This document shows positions 6,994-36,525 of a stretch of 43,136 nucleotides of DNA, piece by piece. Position 1 is the stretch's first letter. The number at the start of each line of letters is the position of its first letter. The stretch comes from Bacteroidota bacterium (lineage in GTDB: Bacteria; Bacteroidota; Bacteroidia; Bacteroidales; UBA932). The notes beneath the pieces were generated by a model that was not told the origin of the DNA, made no database searches, and saw only the letters and a program-made list of their open reading frames with translations. The stretch spans positions 1 to 43,136 of the forward strand of contig JAKQLB010000010.1 of assembly GCA_029567375.1 (NCBI GenBank), written 5' to 3'. Made by a program: the position numbers and the translations under genes.

Positions 6994-7018
6994 TTCAAAA
7001 TCAAAATGTGAACAGAAA

Positions 7019-21539: not shown

Positions 21540-22756
21540 AGTTATCAAAAGCTCTATGCCGACTCATCTTCGGCCTTACATTCATACTTTCGGGTTTTCT
21601 TAAGCTCACCGACCCCATCGGTACGGGACTGATCATCCTGGAGTATCTCGCGGTATTTCATTTGGGATTTCTCAATGCCGCTTCAATTGGCATCGGCATT
21701 GCGCTGTCAGCGATAGAGTTTCTTATAGGTATCTCCATTCTTCTGGGATTGAGGATGAGATTTTTTACCTGGTTAGGGCTTGGCTTTATCTCATTTTTCA
21801 CCCTGCTCACGCTTTATCTGGCCATATTCAATCCTATCACCGATTGCGGCTGCTTCGGCGAAGCGATTCACCTGACCAATTGGGAGACTTTCTACAAAAA
21901 TCTTGTGCTGCTGACCTGTGCGCTGGTGCTCTTTTTCAACCGCAAAAGTTTTATTCCCATAGCACACGCTGCTGTTGAGTGGGTAAGTGTGGGACTTTTC
22001 TTAAGCGTAGCACTGCTGATTGCAATTCCAACCTATTACAATATCCCACAGATTGATTTTACTGCCTATAAGATAGGAACCGACCTTGATGTGCTGACCA
22101 GGGAGTCGCATGCTGAGTATGAGACTGTTTTCGTTTACTCAAAGGATGGTAAGCAAAGGGAGTTTGATCTTCACGATCTGCCCGACTCCACCTGGACATT
22201 TGTGGACTCAAGAACGGAGCTGGTTTCCGGGTCGGCGGAATTGGCGCAAGTGGATATATCACTCAGGGATACATCCGGAGAGTATTGTACTGAAATACTC
22301 TTACAAGAGGAACCCTTAGTAGCGGGAGTGATATGGGATCCCGAGGATATGACTCCACAAATGTGGAGCAATCTGGCCCTCTTGAAGTCCGAATCAATTT
22401 CGTCAGGCAGCCGGTTTATACTCCTAAGCACCGTCAGGGAGTTTGCTGAGAGTCCGGTGGCAACATTTTTCCCTCAGGAAATAATCTATACAGCTGACCG
22501 CAAGGCTCTGATGACACTTGTGCGCTCCAATGGAGGAGGAGTCTATTTCAATGACGGAACTATTATCCACAAATGGGCCTCACGCAGAATTACTTCTGAA
22601 AGAATATCTGACATCCTTTCGGAAGATAGCGATCAGGTAGTTCTGAATGACTCCATCCACCAACGTCTCTACATCAACATTCTGCTCATTGGCATCATTC
22701 TGATAGTCATCCTGATGCGCTATTTCTGCAAATCCTTCTACACGCACAAAGGGTAG
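21536..22756 (+). CDS. BT_3928-like membrane protein with DoxX/MauE-type N-terminus
   Basis: The protein has 406 residues. Four or five membrane segments fill residues 5-167, with a DCGCFG motif after the third (Cys104 and Cys106), as in MauE/DoxX-like proteins thought to handle thiol redox or electron transfer. A soluble region of about 200 residues follows, then a C-terminal membrane segment (about 380-398). The overall layout resembles a conserved Bacteroidota family seen next to folate and nucleotide genes; the function is not known. The start overlaps tmk by 4 nt. The TAG stop (22754-22756) is the first unit of a heptamer array, and the last residues (YTHKG) could be affected by it. Confidence 0.8.
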   Translation: MKLSKALCRLIFGLTFILSGFLKLTDPIGTGLIILEYLAVFHLGFLNAASIGIGIALSAIEFLIGISILLGLRMRFFTWLGLGFISFFTLLTLYLAIFNPITDCGCFGEAIHLTNWETFYKNLVLLTCALVLFFNRKSFIPIAHAAVEWVSVGLFLSVALLIAIPTYYNIPQIDFTAYKIGTDLDVLTRESHAEYETVFVYSKDGKQREFDLHDLPDSTWTFVDSRTELVSGSAELAQVDISLRDTSGEYCTEILLQEEPLVAGVIWDPEDMTPQMWSNLALLKSESISSGSRFILLSTVREFAESPVATFFPQEIIYTADRKALMTLVRSNGGGVYFNDGTIIHKWASRRITSERISDILSEDSDQVVLNDSIHQRLYINILLIGIILIVILMRYFCKSFYTHKG

Positions 22757-22865
22757 GTGCGAGTTGCGGGGTGCAGGGTGCGTGTTAGTTTTGAGTGTGT
22801 AGTTATTAGTATCGAGTTGTGGGGTGCGGGGTGCGCGGTAGTTCTGAGTCAGGAGTGAGGAGTAT
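22754..22865 (+). repeat. Heptamer array A, sense strand of the BT_3928-like gene
   Basis: About fifteen degenerate 7-nt units run from the TAG stop of the upstream gene, for example GAGTTGC, GGGGTGC, TGAGTGT, GTAGTTA, GGAGTGA. Most keep a 7-nt register with AGT or GGT at a fixed place, with two slips. The plus strand is rich in G and T and poor in C. Orientation is outward from the upstream gene. Confidence 0.8.
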
Positions 22866-23149
22866 GAGACAATGGCTTTTCTGTTTAATTTTGTTTTTTT
22901 ATTTTTTTTGCTTATTTTGGACCGTTGAGTATCAATCGTTTGAAGTAGGGGGACTTCATAACATGCTTGTGGCAAAACAGAATATCGCATTATGTCTGTT
23001 CGGGCAATTGCACATAGGTTCGCTCTATCTTGCTGATATAGAGATGCTTGCCACTCCCTCCCCCATTCAAAAACAAGTAACTTTTCCAACTACCATTCAT
23101 GTTATGTTGGCCCCTACAGGAGCCGACAGAAGGACTCTTTTGCTCGTTG
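22866..23149. other. Unassigned block between heptamer arrays A and A'
   Basis: This 284-nt stretch holds a T-rich start (about 22876-22920) and then ordinary-looking sequence. A plus-strand frame (22864-23217, opening MRQWLFCLILFF) and minus-strand frames are open but match no family I recognise, and the plus frame runs on into the repeats. I see no promoter, RNA gene or mobile-element end in it. It may be a decayed gene or repeat. Confidence 0.4.
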
Positions 23150-23236
23150 CGGCCGTGTTGCGAGGTGCGTGTTGCAGGGTGCGCGGCAGTTCCAAGTCTA
23201 TAGTATATAGTGTGTAGCAGAGTCAAGAGTGGAAGA
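23150..23236 (+). repeat. Heptamer array A', same orientation as A
   Basis: Units such as GCAGTTC, CAAGTCT, ATAGTAT, ATAGTGT and AGAGTGG follow a GTGCGTG/GTGCGCG-type stretch. The left part (TTGCGAGGTGCGTGTTGCAG) resembles array A units. It may be a second piece of array A split by the unassigned block at 22866-23149. Confidence 0.7.
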
Positions 23237-23312
23237 CAAGACAAAGAACAGAGAAATAATTGAATAACAAACAGTCATCGTAAAACAAGACCAATCTTAA
23301 AATCAAATACTT

Positions 23313-23444
23313 ATGAAAAACAAAACGTTAAAACCGGCGGAACAATACACCTCGCCCGACATAGAAGTTATCGAAATTGAACTGACCCAAAACATCCTTA
23401 CTGCCAGTCTTCCCGACGTTGGAGACGGAGGAGACGCATGGTAG
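23313..23444 (+). CDS. 43-residue peptide gene of unknown function
   Basis: ATG 23313 opens 43 codons ending TAG 23442-23444. The product begins MKNKTLKPAEQYTSPDIEV, continues with an acidic EVIEIELTQNILTAS segment and ends GDGGDAW. Short Bacteroidales proteins of this shape (a SPxxEVIEIE core, a hydrophobic ILTAS, an acidic Gly-rich tail) are commonly seen beside fimbrillin-like or other surface lipoprotein genes; I know no assigned role. It lies 79 nt upstream of a fimbrillin-like lipoprotein gene. There is no signal peptide. A modified-peptide precursor or a regulatory partner is possible, but no modifying enzyme is nearby. Confidence 0.7.
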   Translation: MKNKTLKPAEQYTSPDIEVIEIELTQNILTASLPDVGDGGDAW

Positions 23445-23451
23445 GTATGGT

Positions 23452-23507
23452 TTAGCTATTAGCCGTTGGCTATTAGCAATGCGTAATGAACAATCAGCCA
23501 ATAACAA
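23452..23507 (+). repeat. Heptamer array G, TTAGCnn type
   Basis: Eight consecutive 7-nt units follow the 43-aa gene: TTAGCTA, TTAGCCG, TTGGCTA, TTAGCAA and four more diverged units. The core differs from the AGTNNNN arrays (TTAGCNN or TTGGCNN). Related TTGGCTA-type sequence also occurs at the tail of array E (36172-36195). Confidence 0.65.
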
Positions 23508-23523
23508 AATAAAACTCATAGCT

Positions 23524-25032
23524 ATGAAATTCAAACTATTTATTATTTCACTGCTTGCCATAATGGTGGTGGGCTGTACGCTTGAATCTAGTCCCGAACC
23601 TGAGAAGGAAGCGGGAAAGATCGTGACCATAAGCGCCACTGTCCCGGGAGAAACCCGTGTGGCATACGATGACGATACGCGCAAACTCGAATGGCAGACC
23701 GGTGACAAACTACTGCTGGCAGGATATGACGGTACAACCTATAAGGGAAGCGAAATCTTTGACTGGACCGGAGGCAATAGTTTTCAGGGGACAGCGGTGC
23801 CAGGTGCCACCACTTACAAGGCCTATTATCCCGGAGAGATAATTACGCTGGATGGTAATGGCAACATGCAACCCCTTGCCGCTGACTTCTGGCAACAGAC
23901 ACAGAACGGAAACGGTATGACTAACCATCTTCGCAAAAAACTGCTCTTGATTGACAGGAATGCCAATGCTATCGATCAGACCTTTAATCTGGCCTTGAGA
24001 TGTGACATATTAAGATTCTGCCTCGGCGGCATTCCACAAGATGCAGGGACACTCAGCAGACTGATTTATACGGTAGAAACGGCAACGGGAGTATTCACAT
24101 CAATGACGCTTAACATGACCGGTGTAACCATCTCTGCCTCTTTGGACAGTATTACCGCTTTCCTCGCTTTTGACCCTGCTGTGATGGGTATAGCTGAGGA
24201 CGGAAAGGTAACAATAAGGTTGGTCGGCAACAAAATATACGAGTGGAGCAAAATCATTACCAACGGAATGCTATACGTAGCCGGAAAACGATACACTGCT
24301 AACGTAAGCGGCGTTTGGACAGAAGTGTTAATCAACCCGCTCAACCCGCTCAGCTACTTTGCCGAGCACAATATGGCAGACCTCAACGGCACCTTCGAGA
24401 CAGGTCACGACGCCTCAGGGCAGTACCTCTTTACTTGGTATGACGCTATGACATACAACACCACCCCGGCTACGCTTAACGGCAAGAGTTACTACCTGCC
24501 CACTAATGAAGAGCGGCGAGCCATTATCCCGGAAGACAACTCTTATGTAAATTTCGACGGTATCGGTGCTCGTACACTCAGTGACGCGGCTGTAACTGTT
24601 GGCGGTGAAAATTATACCATGAGCGGTACTTTTGACAATGTCGGCAACGTGGTTTACGCCACGTTAACCTACACGTACCAATCCTGCCCGACGTTATACG
24701 CGATAGCTCGTTACCGGACAGAGAACTTGAGTGCAGGTAACGCGAATGGGCGAATGGTGGTTGATATGCAGTTAACCGTTACACCATACACGATGGATGA
24801 GGCAAAGAGTGCTGATTGGGGTGCCGTTGGCGTGGTTTCGCGTGTGTTCCCGGCGGCGGGCTTCGGTTTACGCGGACGGCGCTTCGAACAAGGCACGGCC
24901 GGCCGCTACTGGTTGTCCACGGAGAGCAGCGGCCAAGGGTGGGTCGTAGGCTTCGGCAGCGACAACGCGGGCAGCGTGATCGCCAGCACCAATACCTACG
25001 AGTTCTCCATTCGTCTGGTGTCCCGGGAATAG
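23524..25032 (+). CDS. Fimbrillin-like lipoprotein with a C-type-lectin/FISUMP-like C-terminal domain
   Basis: The protein has 502 residues. The type II signal peptide ends VVGC (Cys18). Residues of about 30-270 resemble fimbrillin/Mfa-like lipoproteins (KLEWQTGDKLLLAGYDG, then YKAYYPGEI and QTQNGNGMTNHLRKKLLL). The C-terminal part has FPAAGFGLRGRR, GRYWLSTESSGQGW and YEFSIRLV, the pattern of C-type-lectin-fold domains of the Fibrobacter major paralogous (FISUMP) kind, also used by variable proteins of diversity-generating retroelements. The last 180 coding bases reach 66% G+C against about 45% upstream in the gene. ATG 23524 was chosen because the frame upstream is repeat and the signal peptide starts here. 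It lies between inward-facing heptamer arrays. Surface adhesion is inferred. Confidence 0.78.
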   Translation: MKFKLFIISLLAIMVVGCTLESSPEPEKEAGKIVTISATVPGETRVAYDDDTRKLEWQTGDKLLLAGYDGTTYKGSEIFDWTGGNSFQGTAVPGATTYKAYYPGEIITLDGNGNMQPLAADFWQQTQNGNGMTNHLRKKLLLIDRNANAIDQTFNLALRCDILRFCLGGIPQDAGTLSRLIYTVETATGVFTSMTLNMTGVTISASLDSITAFLAFDPAVMGIAEDGKVTIRLVGNKIYEWSKIITNGMLYVAGKRYTANVSGVWTEVLINPLNPLSYFAEHNMADLNGTFETGHDASGQYLFTWYDAMTYNTTPATLNGKSYYLPTNEERRAIIPEDNSYVNFDGIGARTLSDAAVTVGGENYTMSGTFDNVGNVVYATLTYTYQSCPTLYAIARYRTENLSAGNANGRMVVDMQLTVTPYTMDEAKSADWGAVGVVSRVFPAAGFGLRGRRFEQGTAGRYWLSTESSGQGWVVGFGSDNAGSVIASTNTYEFSIRLVSRE

Positions 25033-25033
25033 T

Positions 25034-25056
25034 TAGTTAGGCGTCTTACCTAACTA
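25034..25056 (+). other. 8-bp hairpin just after the lectin-like gene
   Basis: TAGTTAGG (25034-25041) and CCTAACTA (25049-25056) form a perfect stem with a 7-nt loop, starting 2 nt after the stop codon. There is no T-tract, so it is not an intrinsic terminator; the real terminator is at 25121. A hairpin directly behind a C-type-lectin variable region is a feature of diversity-generating retroelement targets, but no reverse transcriptase or template repeat is in the window. Confidence 0.6.
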
Positions 25057-25120
25057 CCGAGCCCTAATTTAAGCCGGAGGCTAAGCTGAGCTAAATTTAA
25101 AGGCATTTTAACACAAAAGG

Positions 25121-25158
25121 GACCGACTAAAAAGACATTTTAGTCGGTCTCTTTTTTT
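25121..25158 (+). terminator. Strong intrinsic terminator of the lectin-like lipoprotein gene
   Basis: A perfect 12-bp stem (GACCGACTAAAA with TTTTAGTCGGTC, 25121-25149, loop of 5 nt) is followed by a run of seven T at 25152-25158. It is the clearest intrinsic terminator in the window. The stretch 25057-25120 between the lectin gene and this hairpin holds nothing else that I recognise. Confidence 0.9.
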
Positions 25159-25210
25159 AATTAACAATCAGCTGTTATCAATATTCAACAGCCCGCTACT
25201 AACATCAAAA

Positions 25211-25273
25211 ACTCGTACCTCGTACCTCGCAACCCGCAACTACACACTACATACTTCCCACTACAGACTACTT
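25211..25273 (-). repeat. Heptamer array B, sense strand of the oxidoreductase gene
   Basis: Nine units in perfect 7-nt register read on the plus strand as ACTCGTA, CCTCGTA, CCTCGCA, ACCCGCA, ACTACAC and so on to ACTACTT, which contains the oxidoreductase stop. On the gene's own strand they read AGTNNNN-like. Over 63 nt the plus strand has 26 C and 5 G. Diverged units may extend left to about 25163. Confidence 0.85.
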
Positions 25274-28200
25274 AAACGCTTGTTCGCTGAGGCCGGGGCC
25301 ATCGAGGGCTAACTTGCGGAAATAATCGGGAACTTCCCGCCCAAGGAGTGAATCCACATAGAGTTTGGCGATATATTGCGACAGCATGAATCCATGTCCG
25401 CGCATACCCATGAAGAGTCCTCTGGCCGGATCCACGATATAGCGTGGCTCAATATAATAACCGCTCCACATGGCCTGGAAACTCATTCCCCGCAATTGCG
25501 GTATCCAATCTGAAAATACCTCCGCCACTATCTCGATAAATTCCCTGGTACCCACTTTCAGATTCCTGAATGTATCGGTCGCATCATTTGCCGGTGAAGC
25601 ACATCCGATAATCTGGCCCGTATCTGCCAGCTGCTGGCCGTAAACCGCCGAAAATCCCTTGTATTTACGACGATCAATAAGCATATCCAGAGGAGCTCCA
25701 TTCTTGCCCAGTAAAGGGAGACGCTTGGTGATGAAAGCCTGGTGACGCACGGGGAACAATCCTGTCTCAATGCCGAGCTGTTTTGCAAATTTCTCCGCAT
25801 TCGCTCCAAGTGCGTTGACAAAGATTTCCGTCTGATACCTCACATATTTGCCGTCAGGATGCTTGACAAGCAATTCGTAGAGGTCACCATTTCTCGAAAC
25901 ATTTACAAGTTGCGTATTTTCAAATACGGTACCTCCTGCCTCAATTCCCAGGTGGCGCACCAAATCTATGGTACGGCCTGGAGAAGCCTGCCAGCAATCC
26001 CTCGATATAAGGGCATGACTATAGAGATCCAGATCCGGATTGAAATAATCCGATATTTCCCGTTTGAAATCTTTTTTCTCCACCATATAGGCATCCGACC
26101 AGGCAGTAGAGGCCTCAAGTGCCTTATAATTAGCCTCGTCATGGGCAAAACTTATATATCTTATAAGTCTGAAATCAATCTCACCTTTAGAGTCAAGATC
26201 CTTGAAAATCTCGAGATTGTGTTTTGCAATATCCGCAAGCGCAGGCAGTGAAAAAGCGGGACGGCCACCCGCAATATTTCTCCAGGAGCTGCCGTGATCC
26301 ATATTGATCAAAATGGGTGCAAAACCCGCCTCAGCCAGATATCTGAATGTGGCACTGCCGGCTATTCCGCCTCCGGCCACAAAAGCGCCCACCTTTAAAG
26401 GGGTTTGGCCGGTAAAGCGGTCTGAAGTGATGAAAACCCCACTGCCTTCACGGTTAGAGACTGCGCCAATCTCAACCAGATTGGCCATAGGTCCTCTGGG
26501 AGTAAACTCACCAATTACCTCTATTCCATGGTTACGCAGCGCTTGACGTGCCCTTTGAAGGCATCTGCTGCCTCTGCAGACTCCCATACCTATACGAGTG
26601 ATATGCTTGAGCTCCTGAGCCGTAATGCTGGTACGATTACCCATCATTTTCAGGAGTTGTTCAAGGTTGACATCCTCACAGTGACAAATAAATGTATCAG
26701 CCAAATCCTTTTCATCAGAATCCCCTTTGGATACCGGCTTCAACTCCAGCGGCTCCGGATAGTGCTCTTTCACTATAAATCCGCGCGCTTTGAGCAGGTC
26801 CTCAGGGGAGCTCTCATCATATATTTCCGTAGCTTTAACTATAGCTACATTGGTGCGGTTGGGCTTTGTAAGGATACGCTCAATGATACCCTCTCCTACC
26901 TTTTTACCATCGTTGTCCACGAGGAAAACCTCGCTTCCACTCTCTGCGAAATATTCTATAGGCAGATAGAGAAGTTTTTTCTCAGTACGGTAGCCGAAAA
27001 TCGCAAGTCCGGGACACTGTGATACACACTCCATACATCCGATGCACTTGTCATAATCGATAAAAGGTACGGTGGAAGTGGAACTCTTGGTAATTGCACC
27101 GTGGCGACAAGCAAAAGAGCAGGGATTGCAGGCAAAGCCGTAGATGCAATCCATCAGAACAAAACCACCCTTTGCCATACGCTCAGCAGAAGGCTTACGC
27201 GGTTCATCGAGGATCCGTTTTGGATGCTGTTGAGAATCTATATATTCCTTTGAAATGGTAAGATACTCATCATAATTGATCCTGCGGCCGAGAGCCTGCA
27301 TGATCTCAAAAGCACACTGGCGGCCCCTGAGTACCGCAGAAGTGCCCTCTCCTATACGCACAGCATCGCCTACTCCGTGACATGCGAGACCGAAGACCTC
27401 CTGTCCTTTACGCAAGAGCTGGTTGTCAGGGATAAGTCCGGTACAGATATTAATACAATCTATACCATCTATGCGGCGTTCCGTGCCCGGAATCGCCTTG
27501 AAATTTTCACAACGTGCAATGATGGCTCCGGTGATGCCGCTGCGATCTTCATTGGGAATAGCCTCAAGCAAAACATGAGAGGTCATTATGGGAATGCCGA
27601 GACGGCGCACACGGTTTGCCTGGACGGGGAATCCTCCCTCATGAGGCATTGCCTCAATGATTGCCTTAACATGGGCTCCGGCCTGCATTGCCTGATATGA
27701 GGTAAGATAACCTATATTGCCGGCACCTACGGTGAGAATATTCTTTCCGAGAAGTGTATACTCCTTGTTCATCATCCTCTGAACCACAGCTGCAGTATAT
27801 ACCCCGGGAACATCGTCATTTTTTAAGGGAGGCATAAAGGGCAATGCTCCGGTAGCTATCACGAGCTGTTCCGCTTCAACGTAGAATATCTCCTGGGTTA
27901 CAATGTTCTTAACGGCGATAAGCTTACCTTCAAGGATATCCCATACGGTAGAATCGAGGAAAATCCCTTCCTGATTATCTCCTGCAAGGGTTTTGGCTAT
28001 ATCAAATCCCCTCATTCCACCGAACTTGCGTTCATGCTCGAAGAAAAAGAACTGGTGTGTCTGCATCAAAAACTGACCGCCTATCTTGTCATTGTTGTCG
28101 ATGACGAGATTGTCCACCCCCGCCTTGTTAAGCTCTTCACGTCCCGCCAGACCTGCGGGGCCTGCTCCGATGATTGCTACAGTCGTACGGTAAGTGCGTT

Positions 28201-28552
28201 TGAGAGTATCTTTGAGAAAACCCTCCGGCACTGACGCCATCACCCCTTTTTCGCCTGCAGCATTGGCATCTCCGATGCGTTCAACTATTTTGACATCGTC
28301 AACTTTTGTGATACATATCCTGCGTATTGTACCATCGACCAGCATTTCACAGGCCCCGCATTTGCCGATACCGCATTCCATGGAGCGATGACGGCCTAAA
28401 AGACTGTGCTGGTGAATCGGATATCCCGCCTGATGAAGTGCCGCAGCGATAGTATGGCCCCTCTGTCCTCGAACAGGAGTGCCTTCAAATAGAAATTCCA
28501 CAAGATCTTCCTGTGGAATATCCAGAATGGGGTGATTTGTTATTTTATACAT
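25268..28552 (-). CDS. Giant fused FAD/iron-sulfur amino-acid or opine oxidoreductase (HcnABC/SoxAB/proline dehydrogenase-like)
   Basis: One 1094-residue chain joins parts that are usually separate subunits. Residues 1-100 form a plant-type [2Fe-2S] domain (Cys60, 65, 68, 80). Residues 121-430 are an FAD/NAD(P) disulfide-reductase-like domain (VAIIGAGPAG at 125-134, ATG at 233-235). Two [4Fe-4S] motifs follow (Cys469, 475, 478, 482 and Cys503, 506, 509, 513), then a BFD-like [2Fe-2S] site (Cys623, 625, 659, 664). From about 718 it is a DAO-type FAD oxidase/dehydrogenase (GAFVAGGGIAG). This is the part list of HcnABC hydrogen cyanide synthase, opine oxidases, heteromeric sarcosine oxidase and archaeal dye-linked proline dehydrogenase. 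The likely role is oxidation of an amino acid, imino acid or opine; the substrate cannot be read from sequence. No cytochrome or transporter partner is adjacent. A TAATTTTG box lies at 28578-28585 on this strand without a clear -33. Confidence 0.88.
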   Translation of the reverse strand: MYKITNHPILDIPQEDLVEFLFEGTPVRGQRGHTIAAALHQAGYPIHQHSLLGRHRSMECGIGKCGACEMLVDGTIRRICITKVDDVKIVERIGDANAAGEKGVMASVPEGFLKDTLKRTYRTTVAIIGAGPAGLAGREELNKAGVDNLVIDNNDKIGGQFLMQTHQFFFFEHERKFGGMRGFDIAKTLAGDNQEGIFLDSTVWDILEGKLIAVKNIVTQEIFYVEAEQLVIATGALPFMPPLKNDDVPGVYTAAVVQRMMNKEYTLLGKNILTVGAGNIGYLTSYQAMQAGAHVKAIIEAMPHEGGFPVQANRVRRLGIPIMTSHVLLEAIPNEDRSGITGAIIARCENFKAIPGTERRIDGIDCINICTGLIPDNQLLRKGQEVFGLACHGVGDAVRIGEGTSAVLRGRQCAFEIMQALGRRINYDEYLTISKEYIDSQQHPKRILDEPRKPSAERMAKGGFVLMDCIYGFACNPCSFACRHGAITKSSTSTVPFIDYDKCIGCMECVSQCPGLAIFGYRTEKKLLYLPIEYFAESGSEVFLVDNDGKKVGEGIIERILTKPNRTNVAIVKATEIYDESSPEDLLKARGFIVKEHYPEPLELKPVSKGDSDEKDLADTFICHCEDVNLEQLLKMMGNRTSITAQELKHITRIGMGVCRGSRCLQRARQALRNHGIEVIGEFTPRGPMANLVEIGAVSNREGSGVFITSDRFTGQTPLKVGAFVAGGGIAGSATFRYLAEAGFAPILINMDHGSSWRNIAGGRPAFSLPALADIAKHNLEIFKDLDSKGEIDFRLIRYISFAHDEANYKALEASTAWSDAYMVEKKDFKREISDYFNPDLDLYSHALISRDCWQASPGRTIDLVRHLGIEAGGTVFENTQLVNVSRNGDLYELLVKHPDGKYVRYQTEIFVNALGANAEKFAKQLGIETGLFPVRHQAFITKRLPLLGKNGAPLDMLIDRRKYKGFSAVYGQQLADTGQIIGCASPANDATDTFRNLKVGTREFIEIVAEVFSDWIPQLRGMSFQAMWSGYYIEPRYIVDPARGLFMGMRGHGFMLSQYIAKLYVDSLLGREVPDYFRKLALDGPGLSEQAFK

Positions 28553-28701
28553 AAAACCAAGTGCGTTATAGAATTGCCAAAATTAGTCTTTTTTTATAGA
28601 AAAAGAAACTTTTTCAAAATAGTCCGTTTCAACACGGGTAGTTTGTAGTAAAGAAGATATCTTGCGACAGTGTTAAACTAGATAAAAAATGGAGGTAAAC
28701 A

Positions 28702-29760
28702 ATGAAACGATTTGTGCTGATGGGGGTTTTATTCTCCATCATTTTAGCATCCTGCAATATGGGTGCCTTTGAGGAAAGGCAAGCATCGCTTTCCTTCTCT
28801 TTTGCTGTGCCACTGAAAACTACCGTTACTAAAGCCGTATCCTTACCGGACACCAACTCATTTATTCTGCTGGTCAAGAGCAATACCGGAGAGACACTTT
28901 ACAACGGACTGTACGGCTCCAGACCGGCGGAAATTAAAGTACCCGCAGGAACATACGAGGTCTCCGTACGCTCTATTGAATTTGACAAGCCCGCATTTGA
29001 GACTCCGCAGTACGGTGACAGCAAGGTCATAGTAGTCTCGAACGGAGAAAAGGTCTCCATAGCCTTTCTTTGCAAACAACTCAATTCGGGCATGAGGTTC
29101 TCCTTTTCGGAAAACTTTCTAAAAAAGTACAATAGCGGATACCTTTTGTTGGAACAGGAGGCCGGCAATCTGGAATATCTCTTTACAGAACAGCGCACCG
29201 CCTATCTCAAAGCAGGAAACGTCAGTATCTGCCACAAGAGCAATACGGGCAGTGTGCCACTCTTCTGCCGCACTCTTGGAGCCGGTGAAATCCATAACAT
29301 AACACTGGAAGCATCGGCAGCCGAATCAGCTTCGGAGTTTACAATAAAAGTGGACACGACTGTCGTGTACATCAATGAAAAGGTAGTCATAGGGGATGAG
29401 TTCAGCGGTGACGACGGAAGTAGTGCACAAAAGGCGGTTTCGGTGTCCCAAGCTAAAAATCGTATCGGTGACACACTCTGGGTCTGGGGCTACATCATAG
29501 GAGGTGATATGAGTTCATCATCGGTGACATTTGTTGGCCCATTTACTAAGGATTCACATATCGCCATTGCGGAAAATGCCTCTGAAAAGAGCCGTGATGC
29601 CTGCTTTTCGGTTGAACTCTCCAAAACCGCCGTGAAAAATGCTCTTAATCTGGTCGCAAATCCCTCCAACCTCGGACGTAAGGTTTTTCTAAAGGGAGTG
29701 GTTGTGGAATCCTATTTTGGCCTAAACGGCCTTAAAAAAGTATCGGAGTATAGTATGTAG
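28702..29760 (+). CDS. DUF4493/DUF6359 surface lipoprotein
   Basis: The protein has 352 residues. The type II signal peptide ends LASC (Cys18). Residues of about 28-220 look like a DUF4493 domain (a TGETLYNGLYGSRPAEIKVP strand, PAGTYEVSVRS). The C-terminal part (about 245-350) matches DUF6359, an OB-like domain (SSAQKAVSVSQAKNRIGDTL, VWGYIIGGD, KVFLKGVVVESYFG). Both families are Bacteroidota secreted domains of unknown function, and together they suggest a surface ligand-binding protein. A strong Shine-Dalgarno (GGAGGT) precedes the ATG. The last two residues and the TAG stop are contributed by a heptamer array, so the natural C-terminus may once have been different. It diverges from the giant oxidoreductase over about 150 nt. 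Confidence 0.8.
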   Translation: MKRFVLMGVLFSIILASCNMGAFEERQASLSFSFAVPLKTTVTKAVSLPDTNSFILLVKSNTGETLYNGLYGSRPAEIKVPAGTYEVSVRSIEFDKPAFETPQYGDSKVIVVSNGEKVSIAFLCKQLNSGMRFSFSENFLKKYNSGYLLLEQEAGNLEYLFTEQRTAYLKAGNVSICHKSNTGSVPLFCRTLGAGEIHNITLEASAAESASEFTIKVDTTVVYINEKVVIGDEFSGDDGSSAQKAVSVSQAKNRIGDTLWVWGYIIGGDMSSSSVTFVGPFTKDSHIAIAENASEKSRDACFSVELSKTAVKNALNLVANPSNLGRKVFLKGVVVESYFGLNGLKKVSEYSM

Positions 29761-29801
29761 TGTGTAGTGTGTAGTATGAAGTTGGGGAGTTAGAGGTGAT
29801 G
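29752..29801 (+). repeat. Heptamer array C, left arm of island 2
   Basis: Seven units in near-perfect register: AGTATGT, AGTGTGT, AGTGTGT, AGTATGA, an 8-nt unit, AGTTAGA, GGTGATG. There is no C in 50 nt. The first unit contains the start of the TAG stop of the upstream lipoprotein; the last contains the ATG of the four-helix-bundle gene, with AGAGGTG in a Shine-Dalgarno-like position. Confidence 0.9.
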
Positions 29802-30197
29802 AATGCGCGTTATAAGAAATTTGGTGATTTTAGGGATTTAATTGTTTACAAAAAAGCCTTTAAACAGGGTTGTGAAATTTTCGATTTGACTCTCTCATTT
29901 CCCAAAGAAGAGCAATATTCACTAACTAGCCAAATCCGTCGTTCGACTAGATCTGTTTGTGCAAATTTAGCGGAAGCTTATAGAAAAAGGAATTATTTAA
30001 AACACTTTTAATTGAAAATTACCGATTGTTTAGGAGAAAATAGCGAAACATTTGTGTGGTTGGAATTTGCAAGGCAACATACATATATTTCAAAAGAGCT
30101 ATTTCTAAAACTTTGTGCCTCAAACGCTGAAATAACAAAACTTTTAATATATATGTATAACAATCCGAGTAAATTTGGTGTAAAGGAAATACTATAA
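29799..30197 (+). pseudogene. Four-helix-bundle protein (S23/IVP type), broken by an in-frame stop
   Basis: The frame encodes FGDFRDLIVYKKAF, then SLTSQIRRSTRSVCANLAEA and YRKRNYLKHF, followed by TAA at 30009-30011. It resumes in the same frame with LKITDCLGENSETFVWLEFA to a TAA at 30195-30197. Both halves align with the usual order of the four-helix-bundle family found as 23S rRNA intervening-sequence proteins and related to the Avd accessory protein of diversity-generating retroelements. In intact members a sense codon stands where the TAA is. A single base change explains the break; the total (132 codons) matches normal family length. It is bracketed by inverted heptamer arrays C and D, with TAGAGGTGA at one end and its complement at the other. 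Confidence 0.85.
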
Positions 30198-30212
30198 TAC
30201 AGAACGGATAAG

Positions 30213-30301
30213 CACAATCACCTCTATCTCAACACTTTGCTACAGACTCGAAACTAGAGACTATAAACTTACTACACACTACATACTCAGAACTACACAC
30301 T
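30213..30301 (-). repeat. Heptamer array D, right arm of island 2
   Basis: On the minus strand (sense for fabG) about eleven units read AGTGTGT, AGTTCTG, AGTATGT, AGTGTGT, one 11-nt unit, AGTCTCT, AGTTTCG, AGTCTGT and weaker ones, ending at ATAGAGGTGA. It is the inverted partner of array C, and both end at TAGAGGTGA. The plus strand is C-rich and G-poor (about 27 C to 6 G). It stops exactly where the fabG terminator palindrome begins. Confidence 0.88.
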
Positions 30302-30337
30302 AAAAAAATTGTTCGGAAATTTCCGAACAATTTTTTT
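30302..30337. terminator. Perfectly palindromic bidirectional terminator behind fabG
   Basis: A perfect 36-nt palindrome runs from A7 through TTGTTCGGAAA and its complement to T7, giving a hairpin followed by a T-run on either strand. It overlaps the fabG stop codon (30336-30338) and separates the fab operon from island 2. Confidence 0.9.
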
Positions 30338-31076: not shown

Positions 31077-31087
31077 TACGCTATATG

Positions 31088-31528
31088 TTATAGTTTTCTC
31101 TCCTCCAATTTGTCATTGTCCACAAGGGCGAATGCAAGTTTGCTTTTCACACACAATTTTCCATCAACTGATCCTTTGGCCTCAGTAAAATAAACCATCC
31201 CCTTCTTGTCTACAAGCCTGGCGGTGGTCTCAAAAGTATCTCCGGGAAAAACAGAATTTTTAAACCTAACTCCTTCAATGCCCGCATAAAATGGTGTACG
31301 TCCCTTCAAATCATCTCCTATAAGCAAAGCGCAGGCTTGTGCCATCATCTCGCAAAGTATCACTCCCGGTACTACCGGATGACCCGGAAAGTGCCCTTGA
31401 AGGAAAAACTCCTCTCCGGTAACATGGTAACTGGCGTGTGCCACATTGTTTTCATCAATTTCAATCTTATCAACGAGTATCATAGGTTCTCGATGAGGGA
31501 TGAACTCTTTGATCTGCTCTCTTGTCAT
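31088..31528 (-). CDS. fabZ: Stand-alone 3-hydroxyacyl-ACP dehydratase FabZ
   Basis: FabZ removes water from 3-hydroxyacyl-ACP. The 146-residue hot-dog-fold protein carries PHREPMILVD and the active-site block LQGHFPGHPVVPGVILCEMMAQ (cut here to 20 or fewer in use: His46 and Glu60). A TTG four codons upstream is also open, but ATG 31528 is preferred. In most Bacteroidota this activity is the C-terminal half of an LpxC-FabZ fusion; here LpxC at 9987 is unfused, so this may be the main dehydratase. A TATATTTG box at 31538-31545 on this strand could be an internal promoter. It lies 29 nt after fabF. Confidence 0.9.
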   Translation of the reverse strand: MTREQIKEFIPHREPMILVDKIEIDENNVAHASYHVTGEEFFLQGHFPGHPVVPGVILCEMMAQACALLIGDDLKGRTPFYAGIEGVRFKNSVFPGDTFETTARLVDKKGMVYFTEAKGSVDGKLCVKSKLAFALVDNDKLEERKL

Positions 31529-31557
31529 AATCCTGTGCAAATATAGTTAAAAAAGGT

Positions 31558-32802
31558 TTATAAATTTATCCTGCGTAAAGCTATACAGCCATTGTGTCCT
31601 CCAAATCCCAGGGAGTTGGAAAGCGCAATATCAGCCGCAAACTTGCGTGATTTATTCGGAGTATAATCGAGATCACACTCGGGGTCGGGTTCTTGGAGAC
31701 CGATTGTCGGAGGTACAATACCCTCATAGGGGGCCATTACGGCAGCAACCAACTCCACTCCTCCTGCACCACCCAGCATATGGCCGGTCATGGACTTAGT
31801 GGAGGAAATAGCAACTTTGCGTGCTTCTTCTTCACCTACGGCAAGTTTTATGGATATTGTCTCGGACTTATCGTTTAGAGGAGTGCCGGTGCCATGGGCA
31901 TTGATATGGATTTTCTCTCCCTTGCGGTATCCGGCCTCTTCTAGAGCCTGACGCATCGCCTCAGCTGCCGTTGTACCGTCCGGACGCGGTGCGGTATAAT
32001 GGTAGGCATCGCAGGTATTGCCGTATCCGCACACTTCTGCATAGATTTTCGCTCCGCGTGTTACTGCATGGTTATACTCCTCCAGCACCACTATTCCCGC
32101 TCCCTCAGCTATAACAAAGCCCTGCCTGCGTATGTCGAAGGGCAGAGAGGCCTGCAAAGGATCCTCCGAGCGGGATAGTGCTCTGCTGTTAGCAAATCCG
32201 CTGATGGAAAGTGGCGAAACTGCCGCTTCGGAACCACCGCAGATAATGGCATCGGCGTAGCCATGCTTTACGGCTCTGAAAGCCTCACCAATTGAGTGGG
32301 TCCCTGTGGCACAAGCGGTTACTATCGGTAAACAAACACCCCTCGCATCGTACTCAATAGCTATATTTCCGGCTGCAATATTAGAGATCATCATAGGGAT
32401 AAAGAGCGGAGATACCCATTTTGGCCCCTCTTGAACCAATTTGGTAGTTTCATTTACGAAGGTTTCCATACCTCCAATGCCTGATCCAATATAGACTCCA
32501 AGGCGGTCAGGAGCAATATTCTCCTTATTGAGACCGCTGGCTGTCATCGCCTGATTGGCCGCAGCCAGAGCAAAAAGTGCATATCGGTCATTCTTACGAG
32601 CTGTGGGGGGATCAATGCCGTAATCGCCGGGGTTGAAGCCTTTTACCTCTCCGGCAATCTTTACCAGAAGATTATCTGTGGGAAAACGCTCTATCAGCCC
32701 TATTCCGCACTTTCCTGCCGTGATGGAAGACCAGAAATCCTTCAAATTATTTCCAACAGGAGATATTACCCCCATTCCTGTTACTACTACTCTGCGTCCC
32801 AT
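31558..32802 (-). CDS. fabF: 3-oxoacyl-ACP synthase II FabF
   Basis: FabF is the elongating condensing enzyme. The 414-residue protein has the Cys-His-His triad: Cys164 (VTACATGTHS), His304 (NAHGTGTPLND) and His342 (KSMTGHMLGGAGG). The length and the C-terminal SNSLGFGGHNG are standard. It starts 1 nt after the fabK stop, which indicates tight coupling. Confidence 0.96.
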   Translation of the reverse strand: MGRRVVVTGMGVISPVGNNLKDFWSSITAGKCGIGLIERFPTDNLLVKIAGEVKGFNPGDYGIDPPTARKNDRYALFALAAANQAMTASGLNKENIAPDRLGVYIGSGIGGMETFVNETTKLVQEGPKWVSPLFIPMMISNIAAGNIAIEYDARGVCLPIVTACATGTHSIGEAFRAVKHGYADAIICGGSEAAVSPLSISGFANSRALSRSEDPLQASLPFDIRRQGFVIAEGAGIVVLEEYNHAVTRGAKIYAEVCGYGNTCDAYHYTAPRPDGTTAAEAMRQALEEAGYRKGEKIHINAHGTGTPLNDKSETISIKLAVGEEEARKVAISSTKSMTGHMLGGAGGVELVAAVMAPYEGIVPPTIGLQEPDPECDLDYTPNKSRKFAADIALSNSLGFGGHNGCIALRRINL

Positions 32803-32803
32803 A

Positions 32804-33748
32804 TCAAATGCATTTTGAGGTATCCTTAAGGAGCTCCCGAGCTCTATTGATGATCTCGAGAATTATCTCTTTTGCCGGCTGGACCTTCTTAACCAGACCT
32901 GCACTCTGACCGGCCATAAAGCTGCCCATCTTCTCATCTCCATCCTTAACTGCTTTGCGGAGCGAACCGCTACCGAATTCCATGATAGCTTCGGGAGTCT
33001 GGTTAGGATCATTCTCCATCTGGGCGAATTTCCGGGTGAAAGGAGTTTTTAGTGCGCGTACCGGGTGTCCAAGGGTTTTCCCTGTAACAATGGTATCGGT
33101 GTCGCCTGCAGCAATAATCTTCTGCTTGAAAACATCATGAGCAGTGCATTCACTTGCCGTAACGAAAATAGTTCCGCACTGAACGCCTTCTGCTCCGAGC
33201 ATCATTGCTGCTGCAAAGCCTCTACCGTCTGCAATACCACCTGCTGCAATAACCGGAATTGAGACCGCATCACACACCTGAGGTATCAGAGCCATCGTAT
33301 TCATCTCTCCGATGTGTCCACCTGCTTCTCCACCTTCAGCAATGACTGCCACTGCACCCATTCTCTCCATACGTATGGCAAATGCTGTGGAAGCTACTAC
33401 AGGTATTACTTTAATACCTGCTTCAAGCCACTTTTCCATATATTTTGAAGGCGAACCTGCACCTGTAGTGACAACCGGCACCTTTTCGTCGATAACATAC
33501 TGCGCTACCTGGTCAGCAATGGGACTCATCAGCATTATGTTTACGCCGAATGGCTTGTTTGTCATTTTTTTGCATTTTCGGATTTCCTCAAGGACCACAT
33601 CCGCACCTGCATTGATGCTGGAGATGATTCCCAAACCTCCGGCATTGGAGACTGCACTGGCCAGAGCAGCATCTGCAACCCAGGCCATGCCACCTTGCAA
33701 GATCGGGTATTCAATACCCAATAATTCTGTAATTCTTGTTTTTATCAT
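32804..33748 (-). CDS. fabK: Enoyl-ACP reductase II FabK (FMN-dependent)
   Basis: FabK performs the last reduction of the elongation cycle and is unrelated to FabI. The 314-residue 2-nitropropane-dioxygenase-like barrel begins IKTRITELLGIEYPILQGGM, and has GGEAGGHIG, IAAGGIADGRGFAAAMMLGA and the FVTASECTAH loop, very close to the streptococcal FabK pattern. ATG 33748 was chosen from the family N-terminus; an in-frame ATG at 33769 lies inside fabH. FabK-bearing strains are generally less sensitive to FabI inhibitors such as triclosan, which is family knowledge. It lies 5 nt after fabH. Confidence 0.94.
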   Translation of the reverse strand: MIKTRITELLGIEYPILQGGMAWVADAALASAVSNAGGLGIISSINAGADVVLEEIRKCKKMTNKPFGVNIMLMSPIADQVAQYVIDEKVPVVTTGAGSPSKYMEKWLEAGIKVIPVVASTAFAIRMERMGAVAVIAEGGEAGGHIGEMNTMALIPQVCDAVSIPVIAAGGIADGRGFAAAMMLGAEGVQCGTIFVTASECTAHDVFKQKIIAAGDTDTIVTGKTLGHPVRALKTPFTRKFAQMENDPNQTPEAIMEFGSGSLRKAVKDGDEKMGSFMAGQSAGLVKKVQPAKEIILEIINRARELLKDTSKCI

Positions 33749-33753
33749 GATTT

Positions 33754-34713
33754 TCAATTTTTTGACCATTTAAGGAGACAGGCCCCGGCTGTGAAGCCTG
33801 CTCCAAATGCGCTCAACACAATGGTATCTCCGCGATTGAGTGTTTGGTTACGGTTTAGTTCGTCAAGGAGAATTGGAACACTGGCAGAGGATGTGTTGCC
33901 ATAATTCGCAATGTTGTGCGGAAATTTCACTTTGTCCTGGTCGAGCGATTTTCTAATTGTTTCAATAATACGGATATTTGCCTGATGCAGAAGATAGTAG
34001 TCCACATCATCATAAGTGATACCATTCTCCTCAACCACTCTGCGAATATCGTTTAAAGAGGCGTTGACTGCAAGTTTGAAGACGTCCTGACCCTTCATCA
34101 CAAGCGGACCTCCGAACTCTTCCTTTGTAATGAATGGAGTCTTTTCGAGCTGCCTGATCTGATAGAGGGGATCGATACTACTGAAGGAAGAGAGTGCAAT
34201 GGATTTGAAATCATCTCCTCTTTTAAGGACTGCCGCACCGGCACCATCCCCGAAAAGGACACAGGTACTACGCTCCTGCCAATCACACATACGAGTAGGT
34301 TCTTCGGCACAGACTACGAGGATATGGTTAATGTCGCTTTTACTCTTAAAAAACGAGTTTGCAATATCCAGCGCATAAATAAATCCCGCACAGGCACTGT
34401 TCAGGTCGAAACAGGGGCAGGTAGCTCCTATCATCCCCTGGACAATACAACTCAGTGATGGAGTAATGTACTCATTTACTACGTTGGAGCAAATTATAAA
34501 ATCCAGATCTTCCGCGGAAATACCGGCATCTTTCAATGCATTGTGGCAAGCTTCCGCAGCCAGATCCTCTAACTTTACATGTGAAATAAGTTGGCGTTGC
34601 TTTATACCGGTGCGAGTGGTAATCCACTCATCACTTGTGTCAAGAAAAGTGGAGAGCATATCATTTGTCACTGTAAGTGACGGATGGGCTCTCCCCGTTC
34701 CAATAATGTTCAT
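33754..34713 (-). CDS. fabH: 3-oxoacyl-ACP synthase III FabH
   Basis: FabH condenses acetyl-CoA or a branched primer with malonyl-ACP to start fatty-acid synthesis. The 319-residue protein has Cys108 (LNSACAGFIYAL), His243 (LLHQANIRI) and Asn273 (YGNTSSAS). It is first of the fab operon on the minus strand, divergent from the LytTR regulator. Neither fabD nor acpP is present in the cluster, so malonyl transfer and the carrier protein must be encoded elsewhere. Confidence 0.96.
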   Translation of the reverse strand: MNIIGTGRAHPSLTVTNDMLSTFLDTSDEWITTRTGIKQRQLISHVKLEDLAAEACHNALKDAGISAEDLDFIICSNVVNEYITPSLSCIVQGMIGATCPCFDLNSACAGFIYALDIANSFFKSKSDINHILVVCAEEPTRMCDWQERSTCVLFGDGAGAAVLKRGDDFKSIALSSFSSIDPLYQIRQLEKTPFITKEEFGGPLVMKGQDVFKLAVNASLNDIRRVVEENGITYDDVDYYLLHQANIRIIETIRKSLDQDKVKFPHNIANYGNTSSASVPILLDELNRNQTLNRGDTIVLSAFGAGFTAGACLLKWSKN

Positions 34714-34877
34714 TTTTAAAATTTTTTGAGTTTGGGCCGTAAATTTATTTGAGGACCGGCAAATGACAAAATGATTGTGGTTGTCGGTGACATTATGTGG
34801 TGGAATTAGTCCTATTTGGGGTAAAATTTTCGTTTTTGTGGCATCTTTGCTTATCTTTGAACTTTGAATTATACAGA

Positions 34878-35852
34878 ATGAATAGGAAAATATCGGATTT
34901 TCTGCTTGAAAAAAGGCACCAGGTTGTTATGATTATAACAACATTAATTGTTACAATAATAGTTCTCTTAATTATTGTACCTTTTTCACCCACTGCCTGG
35001 CTTAAACTCTCAGGACCGGTATCTTTCTTTCTCACAGTCGGCTTTTTGGCGGTGGCAATTCTTATTCTCGTCATCTGTCGCATTTTTATGTGCAGACTGA
35101 GAAGAAGACAGCAATTCCGCCTCTGGAGCTATTCGCTATGGCTGATTGCAGAATTACTTGTGATTGCTCACTTTTATGCCTATGTGACACTCACCTTGAG
35201 GAAATCGGATCTTATTGCAGGTGATTTCTCCTTTGCAACCCTAGTGACCAGAGGTCTGGTAGGAGTAACCGCCATTCTTTTCGGTTCCAATACCATCTCC
35301 ATCCTTTGGTCAATCCAGCGTGACCAGAAAGAGCGTTTGAAAATCCTTTCAACCGAATGGAAGAGCACCGCACGTGGCCCTGTAATCTTGGATGGCAAAA
35401 GGATTCCTGCCGAAGGGGTAATCGGCACTTCCGGTGACACTGCGTTACAAAACAAAATTGCAAATGAATCGGATTCGGACGATGATATCTCTTCCTCTAT
35501 GTACCCTGAAAGTGAGTCCAGAATAATCAACCTTTTTGACCATAATGGTATCCTTAGGTTCTCCATTAAAGAGTCCGACCTCTACTATATCATATCCCAG
35601 GATAACTATGTGCGTATCCACTATCTGAATAACGGAGAAATGACCAGCTATATGCTCCGCTGTCCTCTTAAGGTGATAGAAAAGTCTATCAAGGGCTCTT
35701 CGCTGATCAGATGCCACCGCTCATATATAGTCAACATATCCAGAATCAAAGTACTCCGTAGCGAAAAAGATGGCTTCTTCATTGACATGGATTATGATGG
35801 CATTGCAGAAATCCCCATTTCAAAGAGCTATTCCGACACCTTTATGGAGTAG
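34878..35852 (+). CDS. Membrane-bound LytTR-family DNA-binding regulator
   Basis: The 324-residue protein has four predicted membrane segments (about 17-36, 47-71, 84-106 and 122-147), a polar linker rich in Ser/Asp (about 195-212), and a C-terminal LytTR domain (about 215-320). The LytTR domain shows ESDLYYIISQDNYVRIHYL, a central SYMLRCPLKVIEKS helix and RCHRSYIVNISRIK. There is no receiver domain, so it would sense through its membrane part or a partner. ATG 34878 was chosen from family shape; a frame open from 34797 overlaps the promoter region. A TATCTTTG box lies at 34852-34859. Its targets are unknown; it is next to the fab operon and a 58-aa helix-turn-helix-like gene. Confidence 0.85.
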   Translation: MNRKISDFLLEKRHQVVMIITTLIVTIIVLLIIVPFSPTAWLKLSGPVSFFLTVGFLAVAILILVICRIFMCRLRRRQQFRLWSYSLWLIAELLVIAHFYAYVTLTLRKSDLIAGDFSFATLVTRGLVGVTAILFGSNTISILWSIQRDQKERLKILSTEWKSTARGPVILDGKRIPAEGVIGTSGDTALQNKIANESDSDDDISSSMYPESESRIINLFDHNGILRFSIKESDLYYIISQDNYVRIHYLNNGEMTSYMLRCPLKVIEKSIKGSSLIRCHRSYIVNISRIKVLRSEKDGFFIDMDYDGIAEIPISKSYSDTFME

Positions 35853-35926
35853 TTCTCAAAAAAAATAGCAGGGAAGGAATCGAGCTAGACCAGTAATAAA
35901 TAAGTTTAAATCACTATAATTAGAAT

Positions 35927-36103
35927 ATGGAAAAAGATGTTATACTCAAAGCAATGCGAGAGGCGGACAAGCCTCTTTCAGCAGGTGAGGTTACCAAACT
36001 TACTGGAATTGATCGCAAGATAGTTGATAAAGTTTTTGCGGAACTGAAGAAAAGCGGAGAAATAACCTCCCCCGTCAGATGCAAGTGGACACCGGCAGAA
36101 TAG
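35927..36103 (+). CDS. Small winged-helix-like DNA-binding protein, 58 aa
   Basis: ATG 35927 opens 58 codons ending TAG 36101-36103. The product starts MEKDVILKAMREADKPLSAG and continues with EVTKLTGIDRKIVDKVFAEL, a typical helix-turn-helix, then a short wing (SGEITSPVRCKWTPAE). Small single-domain proteins of this form are widespread in Bacteroidales; their targets are not known. It is 74 nt downstream of the LytTR gene in the same direction. The TAG stop begins heptamer array E. Confidence 0.75.
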   Translation: MEKDVILKAMREADKPLSAGEVTKLTGIDRKIVDKVFAELKKSGEITSPVRCKWTPAE

Positions 36104-36200
36104 TGTGTAGTATGTAGTGTGTACTGTGAAGTGTGAAGTGTGGAGTGTGGATTCTGAGTGAGGAATTAGATGTTGGCTATTTGCTGTTAGTTCTAGCTTC
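36101..36200 (+). repeat. Heptamer array E, left arm of island 3
   Basis: From the TAG stop of the 58-aa gene: AGTGTGT, AGTATGT, AGTGTGT, ACTGTGA, AGTGTGA, AGTGTGG, AGTGTGG, ATTCTGA, then weaker units and a TTGGCTA-type tail. Only one or two C occur in the first 55 nt. The register is perfect for at least eight units. Confidence 0.88.
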
Positions 36201-36328
36201 TAATTGACACCGTTGTTAGCATAGTTGCTCTACTAATAATCTTTCTGAATATAATACTAATATACTAGCTTGAATTGTGAAATACAAAGTCCTGGGCTAA
36301 TTATTCTTAACCCAGGACTTTTAAATTT
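36201..36328. other. Core of island 3: no gene, one intrinsic terminator
   Basis: Between arrays E and F the only structure seen is a perfect 11-bp hairpin (AAAGTCCTGGG 36286-36296 with CCCAGGACTTT 36311-36321, loop 14 nt) flanked by A-rich and T-rich sequence, which could stop transcription from either side. No open frame, IS end or RNA gene was recognised. Confidence 0.75.
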
Positions 36329-36491
36329 TACTAATTAAAACTTGGAACTTCCAACTTTTAATTCCTAACTCGAAACTCTGTCGCGGAAATCCAAACTCTG
36401 GACTCTTAACTCAAAATAATACTCAGAGCTATGTACTCAGAACTCTGAACTAATAAACTTACTCAGAACTACACACTCGGAACTCTGAACT
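36329..36491 (-). repeat. Heptamer array F, right arm of island 3
   Basis: On the minus strand (sense for the rubrerythrin gene) about twenty units read AGTTCAG, AGTTCCG, AGTGTGT, AGTTCTG, a longer unit, AGTTCAG, AGTTCTG, AGTACAT, AGCTCTG and so on to AGTTGGA, AGTTCCA, AGTTTTA. Three slips of 9-12 nt interrupt the register. It is the longest array in the window and the inverted partner of array E. Confidence 0.85.
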
Positions 36492-36525
36492 GAGATACTT
36501 TGAAAATTACTTTTCAAAGTATCTC
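36492..36525 (-). other. 15-bp hairpin spanning the rubrerythrin stop codon
   Basis: A perfect 15-bp stem (36492-36506 with 36511-36525) has a 4-nt loop that contains most of the stop codon. No T-tract follows on the minus strand; heptamer array F starts immediately. It may stabilise the mRNA 3' end or act with a Rho-dependent terminator. Confidence 0.7.

Follow-up and report, generated by a model that had tools for sequence, protein, structure and literature searches.

Inverted heptamer arrays at gene 3' ends in a Bacteroidales genome and their association with the PF05635 protein family

What are the arrays of degenerate 7-nucleotide (nt) units that lie where genes converge in a genome of the phylum Bacteroidota, and to what do they belong? 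The question is raised by contig JAKQLB010000010.1 (assembly GCA_029567375.1, order Bacteroidales), analysed as one stretch of 43,136 nt (the window), in which a first-pass annotation had noticed seven arrays with an AGT core, facing inwards in pairs at three convergent gene junctions. As the best reading, held with moderate confidence, these arrays are the arms of small selfish elements linked to PF05635, the family of the 23S rRNA-intervening sequence protein, most copies of which carry no gene and would have reached their sites by moving. The three junctions are numbered 1 to 3 and are also named here after the oxidoreductase, fabG and rubrerythrin genes, respectively, that they border. The genome of the window is referred to as G000 (a 3.38-Mb assembly of 400 contigs), other G-numbers being comparison genomes and L-numbers individual loci or stretches.

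Occurrence, position and strand of the arrays

All seven places noticed at first indeed carry 7-nt periodic AGT runs of at least three consecutive units, and within the window arrays are present at the three convergent junctions as claimed. They sit between protein genes and not within an rRNA gene (Table 1). Genome-wide, a five-unit AGT pattern with at most one mismatch, counted as overlapping matches and not as arrays, was retrieved 205 times in G000 versus five times when the pattern was read backwards; such pattern counts detect only AGT- and TGA-core dialects of the unit. In addition, a G000 sample of 553,512 bases, 20 of the 40 stretches of which came from contigs known to carry arrays, contained 42 arrays, compared with none after a Markov shuffle and three in the reversed sequence. 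When triplet runs of periods 4-12 were counted in this sample, period 7 accounted for 178 and each other period for 0-16.

Position relative to genes was assessed in a sample of six related genomes (1.37 Mb, 81 arrays), seven stretches of relatives having been chosen for the junctions of the window. Convergent spacers contained 36 arrays in 38.1 kb, co-directional spacers 27 in 76.7 kb and divergent spacers three in 47.7 kb, with four arrays within called genes and 11 at stretch ends; these counts are non-independent, orthologous junctions recurring, and rest on a simple hexamer-based gene caller that missed small genes, such as the 58-amino-acid (aa) gene of junction 3. The enrichment at convergent junctions that the first-pass annotation had proposed to check was thus present. 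Its claim that arrays are absent from operons was contradicted by the co-directional spacers, and its claim on divergent spacers stood as rarity, not as strict absence. Of the arrays whose nearest gene end was a 3' end, 53 of 58 ran on the strand of that gene, as did 30 of 31 in the G000 sample; for eight further arrays of the six-genome sample the nearest end was a 5' end. The strand and 3'-end rule and the convergent enrichment hold; the array at 23150-23236 abuts no gene 3' end. Neither of the two outcomes named beforehand as speaking against the arrangement, namely equal frequency at divergent or coding sites and a lack of strand bias, was seen in the samples.

Many arrays start at the stop codon itself. 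Indeed, TAG terminated 29 of the 39 genes with an array starting at most 12 nt from the gene end, versus 266 of 999 genes overall (Fisher p = 1.7e-9), and in 28 of 59 cases the array offset was -2, -9 or -16, the stop codon then being supplied by a TAG unit of the array. By eye, about 11 of 59 arrays were judged to start downstream of a hairpin or of the T-run of a terminator, several of them at junctions orthologous to those of fabG and rubrerythrin.

PF05635 in the genus and beyond

In the window, PF05635 is confined to junction 2, where both pieces of a pseudogene match the family (the second below the Pfam cut-off); the other window proteins tested gave no match. Within the genus, arrays are nearly all-or-none, with more than 100 pattern matches in eight genomes (G000, G005, G009, G012, G014, G017, G061, and G062) and 0-1 in the 32 others. 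PF05635 was retrieved from G000, G005, G014, and G017 with the Pfam model and from G061 and G062 by profile search, all of them array-bearing, which amounts to six of the eight array-bearing genomes versus none of the 32 others (31 checked by Pfam model and one by profile; Fisher p = 7.3e-6). The two array-bearing genomes without the family are 51% and 65% complete. The ratio of nonsynonymous to synonymous substitution rates (dN/dS) of the open reading frame (ORF) at the fabG junction was 0.08-0.11 (seven pairs, dS 0.59-0.71); judging from these rates, the ORF is under purifying selection, despite one stop in G000. By sequence, its relatives of solved structure are 2gsc (XCC0516 of Xanthomonas campestris) and 2rld, with five chains each, the former having been described as a ring-shaped homopentamer (PMC4990558).

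Comparison of the same junctions in sister genomes, another check proposed earlier, revealed presence, absence and swapped cargo alike, in line with the first description of inverted arms around exchangeable content. At the fabG junction, an island with an orthologous PF05635 ORF was found in G000, G061, G014, G017, and G062; G005 retains only a short remnant beside two terminators, G012 has no array in the 146 bp behind fabG before its contig ends, the outgroup G035, whose neighbour is the same, lacks an array, and G025 has a different neighbour. Array length at this junction differs in steps of 7 nt, from five units in G000 to about 26 in G014. At the oxidoreductase junction, the lipoprotein-like ORF was shared by G000, G061, and G014, other sequence was present in G017, and two further genomes had arms only (Table 1). 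The rubrerythrin junction has a long island common to G000, G014, and G005, a short inverted pair of another dialect in G061 (unit GTACGGG), and, in G012, 212 bp before the contig ends, from which both the arrays and the 58-aa gene are absent. Two more junctions were filled in one genome and near zero-length in another (L054 versus L252, where the insert itself provides a stop codon, and L279 versus L258), and in a third pair the spacer is different throughout, terminator included.

The association extends across the phylum. PF05635 was found in 193 of 247 Bacteroidota genomes at E 0.001 (183 above the Pfam cut-off), and at least 10 AGT/TGA pattern matches occurred in 158 of these 193 genomes versus nine of the 54 without the family. 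The link was also present within genera, as a stratified permutation reached the observed value in 0 of 20,000 draws (11 genera with both states) and in 4 of 20,000 when the genus of G000 was left out.

Beyond the genus, 80 PF05635 loci of named genomes (not a random sample, being the best 80 of 577 confirmed) were inspected by comparing the 250 bp on each side of the ORF with flanks farther out. Period-7 arrays lay near the ORF at 23 loci and period-8 arrays at 18 (40 loci in all), versus three and none farther out, and periods 4-6 and 9-13 gave 0-3 each; at the 18 loci period-8 arrays replace period-7 ones, one locus having both. The two flanks were inverted copies of each other (z of at least 4) in 50 of 77 loci and copies in direct orientation in 10 of 77, compared with none of 69 distant flank pairs, and in 54 of 78 the arms of a locus were more similar to each other than 95% of the pairs formed between loci. 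Thirteen of the 40 array-flanked loci bear titles from outside the Bacteroidetes (Anaerolineaceae, Atribacterota, SAR324, Nitrospirae, Sedimentisphaerales, several Patescibacteria, and one archaeon), where draft assemblies may be contaminated. Similarly, among 30 PF05635 loci of the order, a stretch of period 7 was present within 100 bp in 16, of period 8 in six and of other periods in 0-2, and many of the flanks (14 inspected) look like inverted arrays whose unit is particular to the genome. Of 31 plasmid records matched by one PF05635 query, 25 were cyanobacterial; 10 of the 16 plasmid loci fetched (14 of them cyanobacterial) had inverted flanks at the same z threshold, the array unit being, for instance, AGTAGGG in Nostoc edaphicum and GGGAACA in Nostoc sp. 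C052. Carriage by phages was rejected, as tblastn with one PF05635 protein as query found no match at 1e-5 in 50,697 phage records.

The element also occurs inside operons. In at least 12 of the 80 loci (thirteen looked at) it lies between frdA and frdB, with arms mostly of period 8. From 25 of the 30 frdB loci fetched in the order, 17 frdA-frdB junctions could be resolved: 12 with a spacer of 4-46 bp, one of 445 bp with the element, three of 138-256 bp (two with some period-7 signal), and one mis-measured through a wrong start call. The arms at frdA-frdB are written in different dialects and are complementary within a dialect, most clearly in L151, L154, and L164/L165; because several loci share a dialect, a locus's own arm was the best match in only three of 12. 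Furthermore, PF05635 genes with 7- or 8-nt arrays were found inside cyanobacterial cas operons (L294, L297, and L306), between cas6 and cas4 in two and between cas10 and cmr3 in one. Eighteen such genes in cas loci were counted earlier as an interesting associated function (PMC3936711). The genes at L294, L297, and L306 are likely passengers and not CRISPR parts.

Hairpins within islands were compared by eye. One related to the hairpin of island 3 is present in another array island of G000 (L060, near 17633), with the same loop and a stem changed on both sides. G009, on another branch of the genus, has a dialect of its own (AGTCTAG, AGTTAAG, AGTCCAG), and its islands L350 and L351 share an internal hairpin with a near-identical loop and stems changed on both sides. 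Related hairpins in different islands fit repeated gene-less copies; terminators could look alike too. Six inward pairs in five loci of G009 fold into long stems (11 stretches fetched; folds without shuffle control).

Table 1. Arrays, islands and associated features at the three junctions of the window (chains are of at least four units, single gaps allowed)
Feature	Position	Strand	Chain	Remarks
Left arm, junction 1	22754..22867	+	22787-22867	Starts at TAG stop of MauE/DoxX-like gene (21536-22756, by Pfam); AGT runs, lag-7 match 0.61
Extra array within island 1	23150..23236	+	23188-23215	Upstream of lipoprotein; no gene 3' end adjoining
Lipoprotein-like ORF, cargo of island 1	23422..25032	+		No Pfam match; G005 and G012 have arms only
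Right arm, junction 1	25211..25273	-	25235-25269	TAG stop common to oxidoreductase gene (25268-28552)
Left arm, junction 2	29747..29801	+	29752-29786	Provides TAG stop of DUF4493/DUF6359 gene (28702-29760)
PF05635 ORF (23S_rRNA_IVP, four-helix bundle)	29799..30197	+		One internal stop; intact in G061, G014, G017, and G062
Right arm, junction 2	30213..30301	-	30242-30301	Immediately behind T-run of fabG terminator
Terminator-like hairpin and T-run of fabG	30302..30337	-		Between array and fabG stop; read by eye
Left arm, junction 3	36101..36200	+	36102-36150	Starts at TAG stop of 58-aa helix-turn-helix-like gene (35927-36103)
Internal hairpin, island 3	36286..36322	no strand		Read by eye
Right arm, junction 3	36329..36491	-	36336-36491	Immediately behind hairpin at rubrerythrin stop (rubrerythrin 36507-37061)

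Some further features were noted. The C-terminal part of the island-1 lipoprotein (24700-25032; L142 and L143) is very different in G000 from that in G061 and G014, and its end presumably resembles a lectin end diversified by a retroelement. A link of this lipoprotein to a diversity-generating retroelement (DGR) was rejected, its C-terminal part having no BLAST match on the 16.8-kb contig C99 of G000, which bears an Avd-like gene and a reverse transcriptase gene. On that contig (L062, 14677-16479), a weak PF05635 (Avd-like) match lies 0.9 kb before an RVT_1 gene, a pair that is probably a DGR. Another contig of G000, the 4.3-kb C330 (L073), contains period-7 stretches and, one after another, three PF05635 pieces; it is possibly a nest of elements of this kind, possibly a contamination. 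Finally, window positions 6893-7003 have a period-9 similarity (0.66) at the meeting point of two overlapping ORFs.

Proposed mechanism and competing explanations

The proposed element would consist of a repeat array, a payload, and a second, inverted repeat array. Its full form would carry PF05635 as the single gene, the solved relatives of which are rings of five four-helix bundles, and most copies, including those at junctions 1 and 3, would lack this gene and retain arms, a hairpin or foreign cargo. The first description of the islands as non-autonomous elements suits most copies well. Such elements would settle where insertion is cheapest, at a stop codon or just behind a terminator, and convergent junctions would therefore gather them whereas divergent, promoter-bearing spacers would not. 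The arms would lengthen and shorten by 7-nt steps and drift in sequence while remaining inverted copies of each other. The PF05635 ring may bind the array as a single strand or hairpin, and the array pairs would be copied or moved through host replication and repair. PF05635 would act on the arrays, and the arrays would spread by means of it. What the data themselves show is how the elements are built and where they lie, their presence or absence among genomes, the association with PF05635 and the selection on this protein. A reverse-transcriptase route was rejected: RVT_1 was present in two of six array carriers and in eight of 31 non-carriers of the genus, so that it does not track the arrays, and a reverse transcriptase belonging to the element is therefore not supported.

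Several observations weigh against a PF05635-linked element. No actual movement was observed, and no target-site duplication was visible by eye at two filled/empty pairs, the ancestral state of which is unproven. Six PF05635-free Bacteroidota genomes, 95-100% complete, have at least 20 pattern matches (G157, with 420, G167, G231, G275, G300, and G151), and a more sensitive profile found no PF05635 in these six at E 0.1. Arrays can thus arise or be kept in a genome that lacks the protein. Conversely, 26 of the 193 genomes with PF05635 have fewer than five matches. In three of the 11 genera with both states (g73, g94, and g68), the median match count was higher in the PF05635-free genomes. Half of the 80 loci have no period-7 or period-8 array, 27 of 77 have no clear inverted flanks, and at the cyanobacterial L294 long arrays surround PF05635 in direct orientation. 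Period 7 is not essential, because the arms of the twelve frdA-frdB copies are mostly of period 8. Moreover, shuffled sequences fold as well as five islands of the clade of G000 (z -1.3 to +0.4) and as two single arms (z -0.3 and +0.9). With these folds, an RNA-hairpin function of the islands of this clade was rejected.

The six array-rich genomes without PF05635 would be expected if the arrays were plain microsatellites, arising and expanding by slippage at insertion-tolerant gene ends and unrelated to PF05635, as would the 7-nt steps by which array length varies among relatives at junction 2. Polymerase slippage has been discussed for heptamers of other bacteria (PMC4692102), and for others again the origin was left open (PMC4679880). 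Slippage alone would not place inverted pairs around a single protein family in several phyla, nor would it produce an all-or-none distribution within one genus; it is considered unlikely as the full explanation.

A safe-harbour function, in which the arrays are target sites and PF05635 or other cargo, such as the lipoprotein, inserts or is swapped by recombination between arrays, appears less likely still. Insertion into a single array would leave direct flanks, as at L294, whereas inverted flanks outnumber direct ones five to one; the oxidoreductase junction with its lipoprotein, other sequence (G017) or neither is what such swapping would give.

That the arrays are functional 3' ends, the opposing C-rich arm halting read-through between convergent genes by a Rho-type mechanism, is very improbable, in spite of their 3'-end position and strand bias and of four arms with C of 0.25-0.42 and G of 0.00-0.11 on the opposing strand. 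A Rho rut site was rejected, as YC dinucleotides are not consistently enriched in these C-rich arms (0.079-0.160 versus 0.125 in the window). In addition, some arrays (the 11 or so of 59 mentioned above) lie behind a hairpin or terminator, PF05635 copies with such arms occur inside operons (frdA-frdB and cas), and arrays are missing at the same junction in sister genomes. Backup stop codons, with TAG every 7 nt giving a stop in every frame, are the least credible explanation, the TAG bias and array offsets given above notwithstanding, as units without a stop occupy like places (GTACGGG at the rubrerythrin junction of G061 and GGGAACA in Nostoc sp. C052) and arrays behind terminators need no stop.

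Comparison with known systems

The first-pass annotation knew of no description of the arrangement; its geometry has, however, been published for Xanthomonas. The GGGAATC and GGGGA(C/T)T heptamers of Xanthomonas and Nostoc are intergenic, lie on the coding strand and, when downstream of genes, are found mostly 0-50 bp after stops; few lie between divergent genes, and they form inward-facing pairs in Xanthomonas, whereas in Nostoc pairs are few (PMC4692102). The window arrays are alike in being intergenic tandem 7-nt repeats, in facing inwards in pairs and in following stop codons on the coding strand. They differ in unit sequence, and the Xanthomonas and Nostoc repeats are G-quadruplex forming (PMC4692102); here, AGTGTGT units contain no run of three Gs and AGTGGGT units do. 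No general link of those repeats to mobile elements was reported, and PF05635 is not mentioned in the available parts of the paper (PMC4692102).

TAACTGA heptamers, in turn, are known from Beggiatoaceae, Cyanobacteria and five Bacteroidetes, with a patchy, possibly horizontal distribution (PMC4679880). They share with the present arrays the heptamer build and the patchy spread, and their reverse strand has an AGT core. In contrast to the arrays described here, most of those in the main Beggiatoaceae genome immediately precede start codons, and the available text identifies no carrier protein (PMC4679880).

Among mobile elements, DGRs offer a relative of PF05635 in fold and family, namely the accessory protein Avd (PMC10053308), and differ in that, within the genus, RVT_1 genes and arrays do not go together. 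Non-autonomous transposons of the type of miniature inverted-repeat transposable elements (MITEs) likewise have inverted ends and many gene-less copies, whereas the ends here are tandem arrays, with no transposase identified and no target-site duplication seen at the two sites mentioned. The 23S rRNA intervening sequences, in turn, share the family PF05635 (junction 2) and inverted ends. That of Coxiella contains tandem heptamers (GACAGAT before the ORF), terminal inverted repeats, and an S23 ORF (PMC4990558). Intervening sequences sit in rRNA genes, from which RNase III cuts them out (PMC4990558), whereas the elements considered here lie between protein genes and have longer arrays as arms.

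Apart from this Coxiella sequence, no paper linking heptamer arrays to PF05635 was found in the open-access literature, subscription papers lying outside the search. The geometry being known, the part that we did not find in print is PF05635 as partner of the arrays. The S23/PF05635 proteins have been stated to have no known function (PMC4990558) and, as far as their available text goes, the papers on heptamer repeats name no agent (PMC4692102, PMC4679880), so that the pairing provides a testable owner for both puzzles. The PF05635 genes of cas operons would also come to be seen as passengers. Were movement to be shown, the element, small and mobile, with a single gene for a ring-forming protein and no known enzyme, would represent a new way to move DNA or RNA. 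As a tentative extension, in which we place less confidence than in the reading for the window, PF05635 proteins might be the agents of a bacteria-wide class of selfish elements, which would write arrays of heptamers or octamers, in inverted orientation, at the 3' ends of genes. The heptamers of cyanobacteria, Xanthomonas, Beggiatoa and Bacteroidota and the rRNA intervening sequences would then be one thing and the cas-operon genes its passengers. Repeat pairs around the gene of a ring-forming protein in other bacteria suggest that the two old puzzles share one source, a widespread family of small selfish elements.

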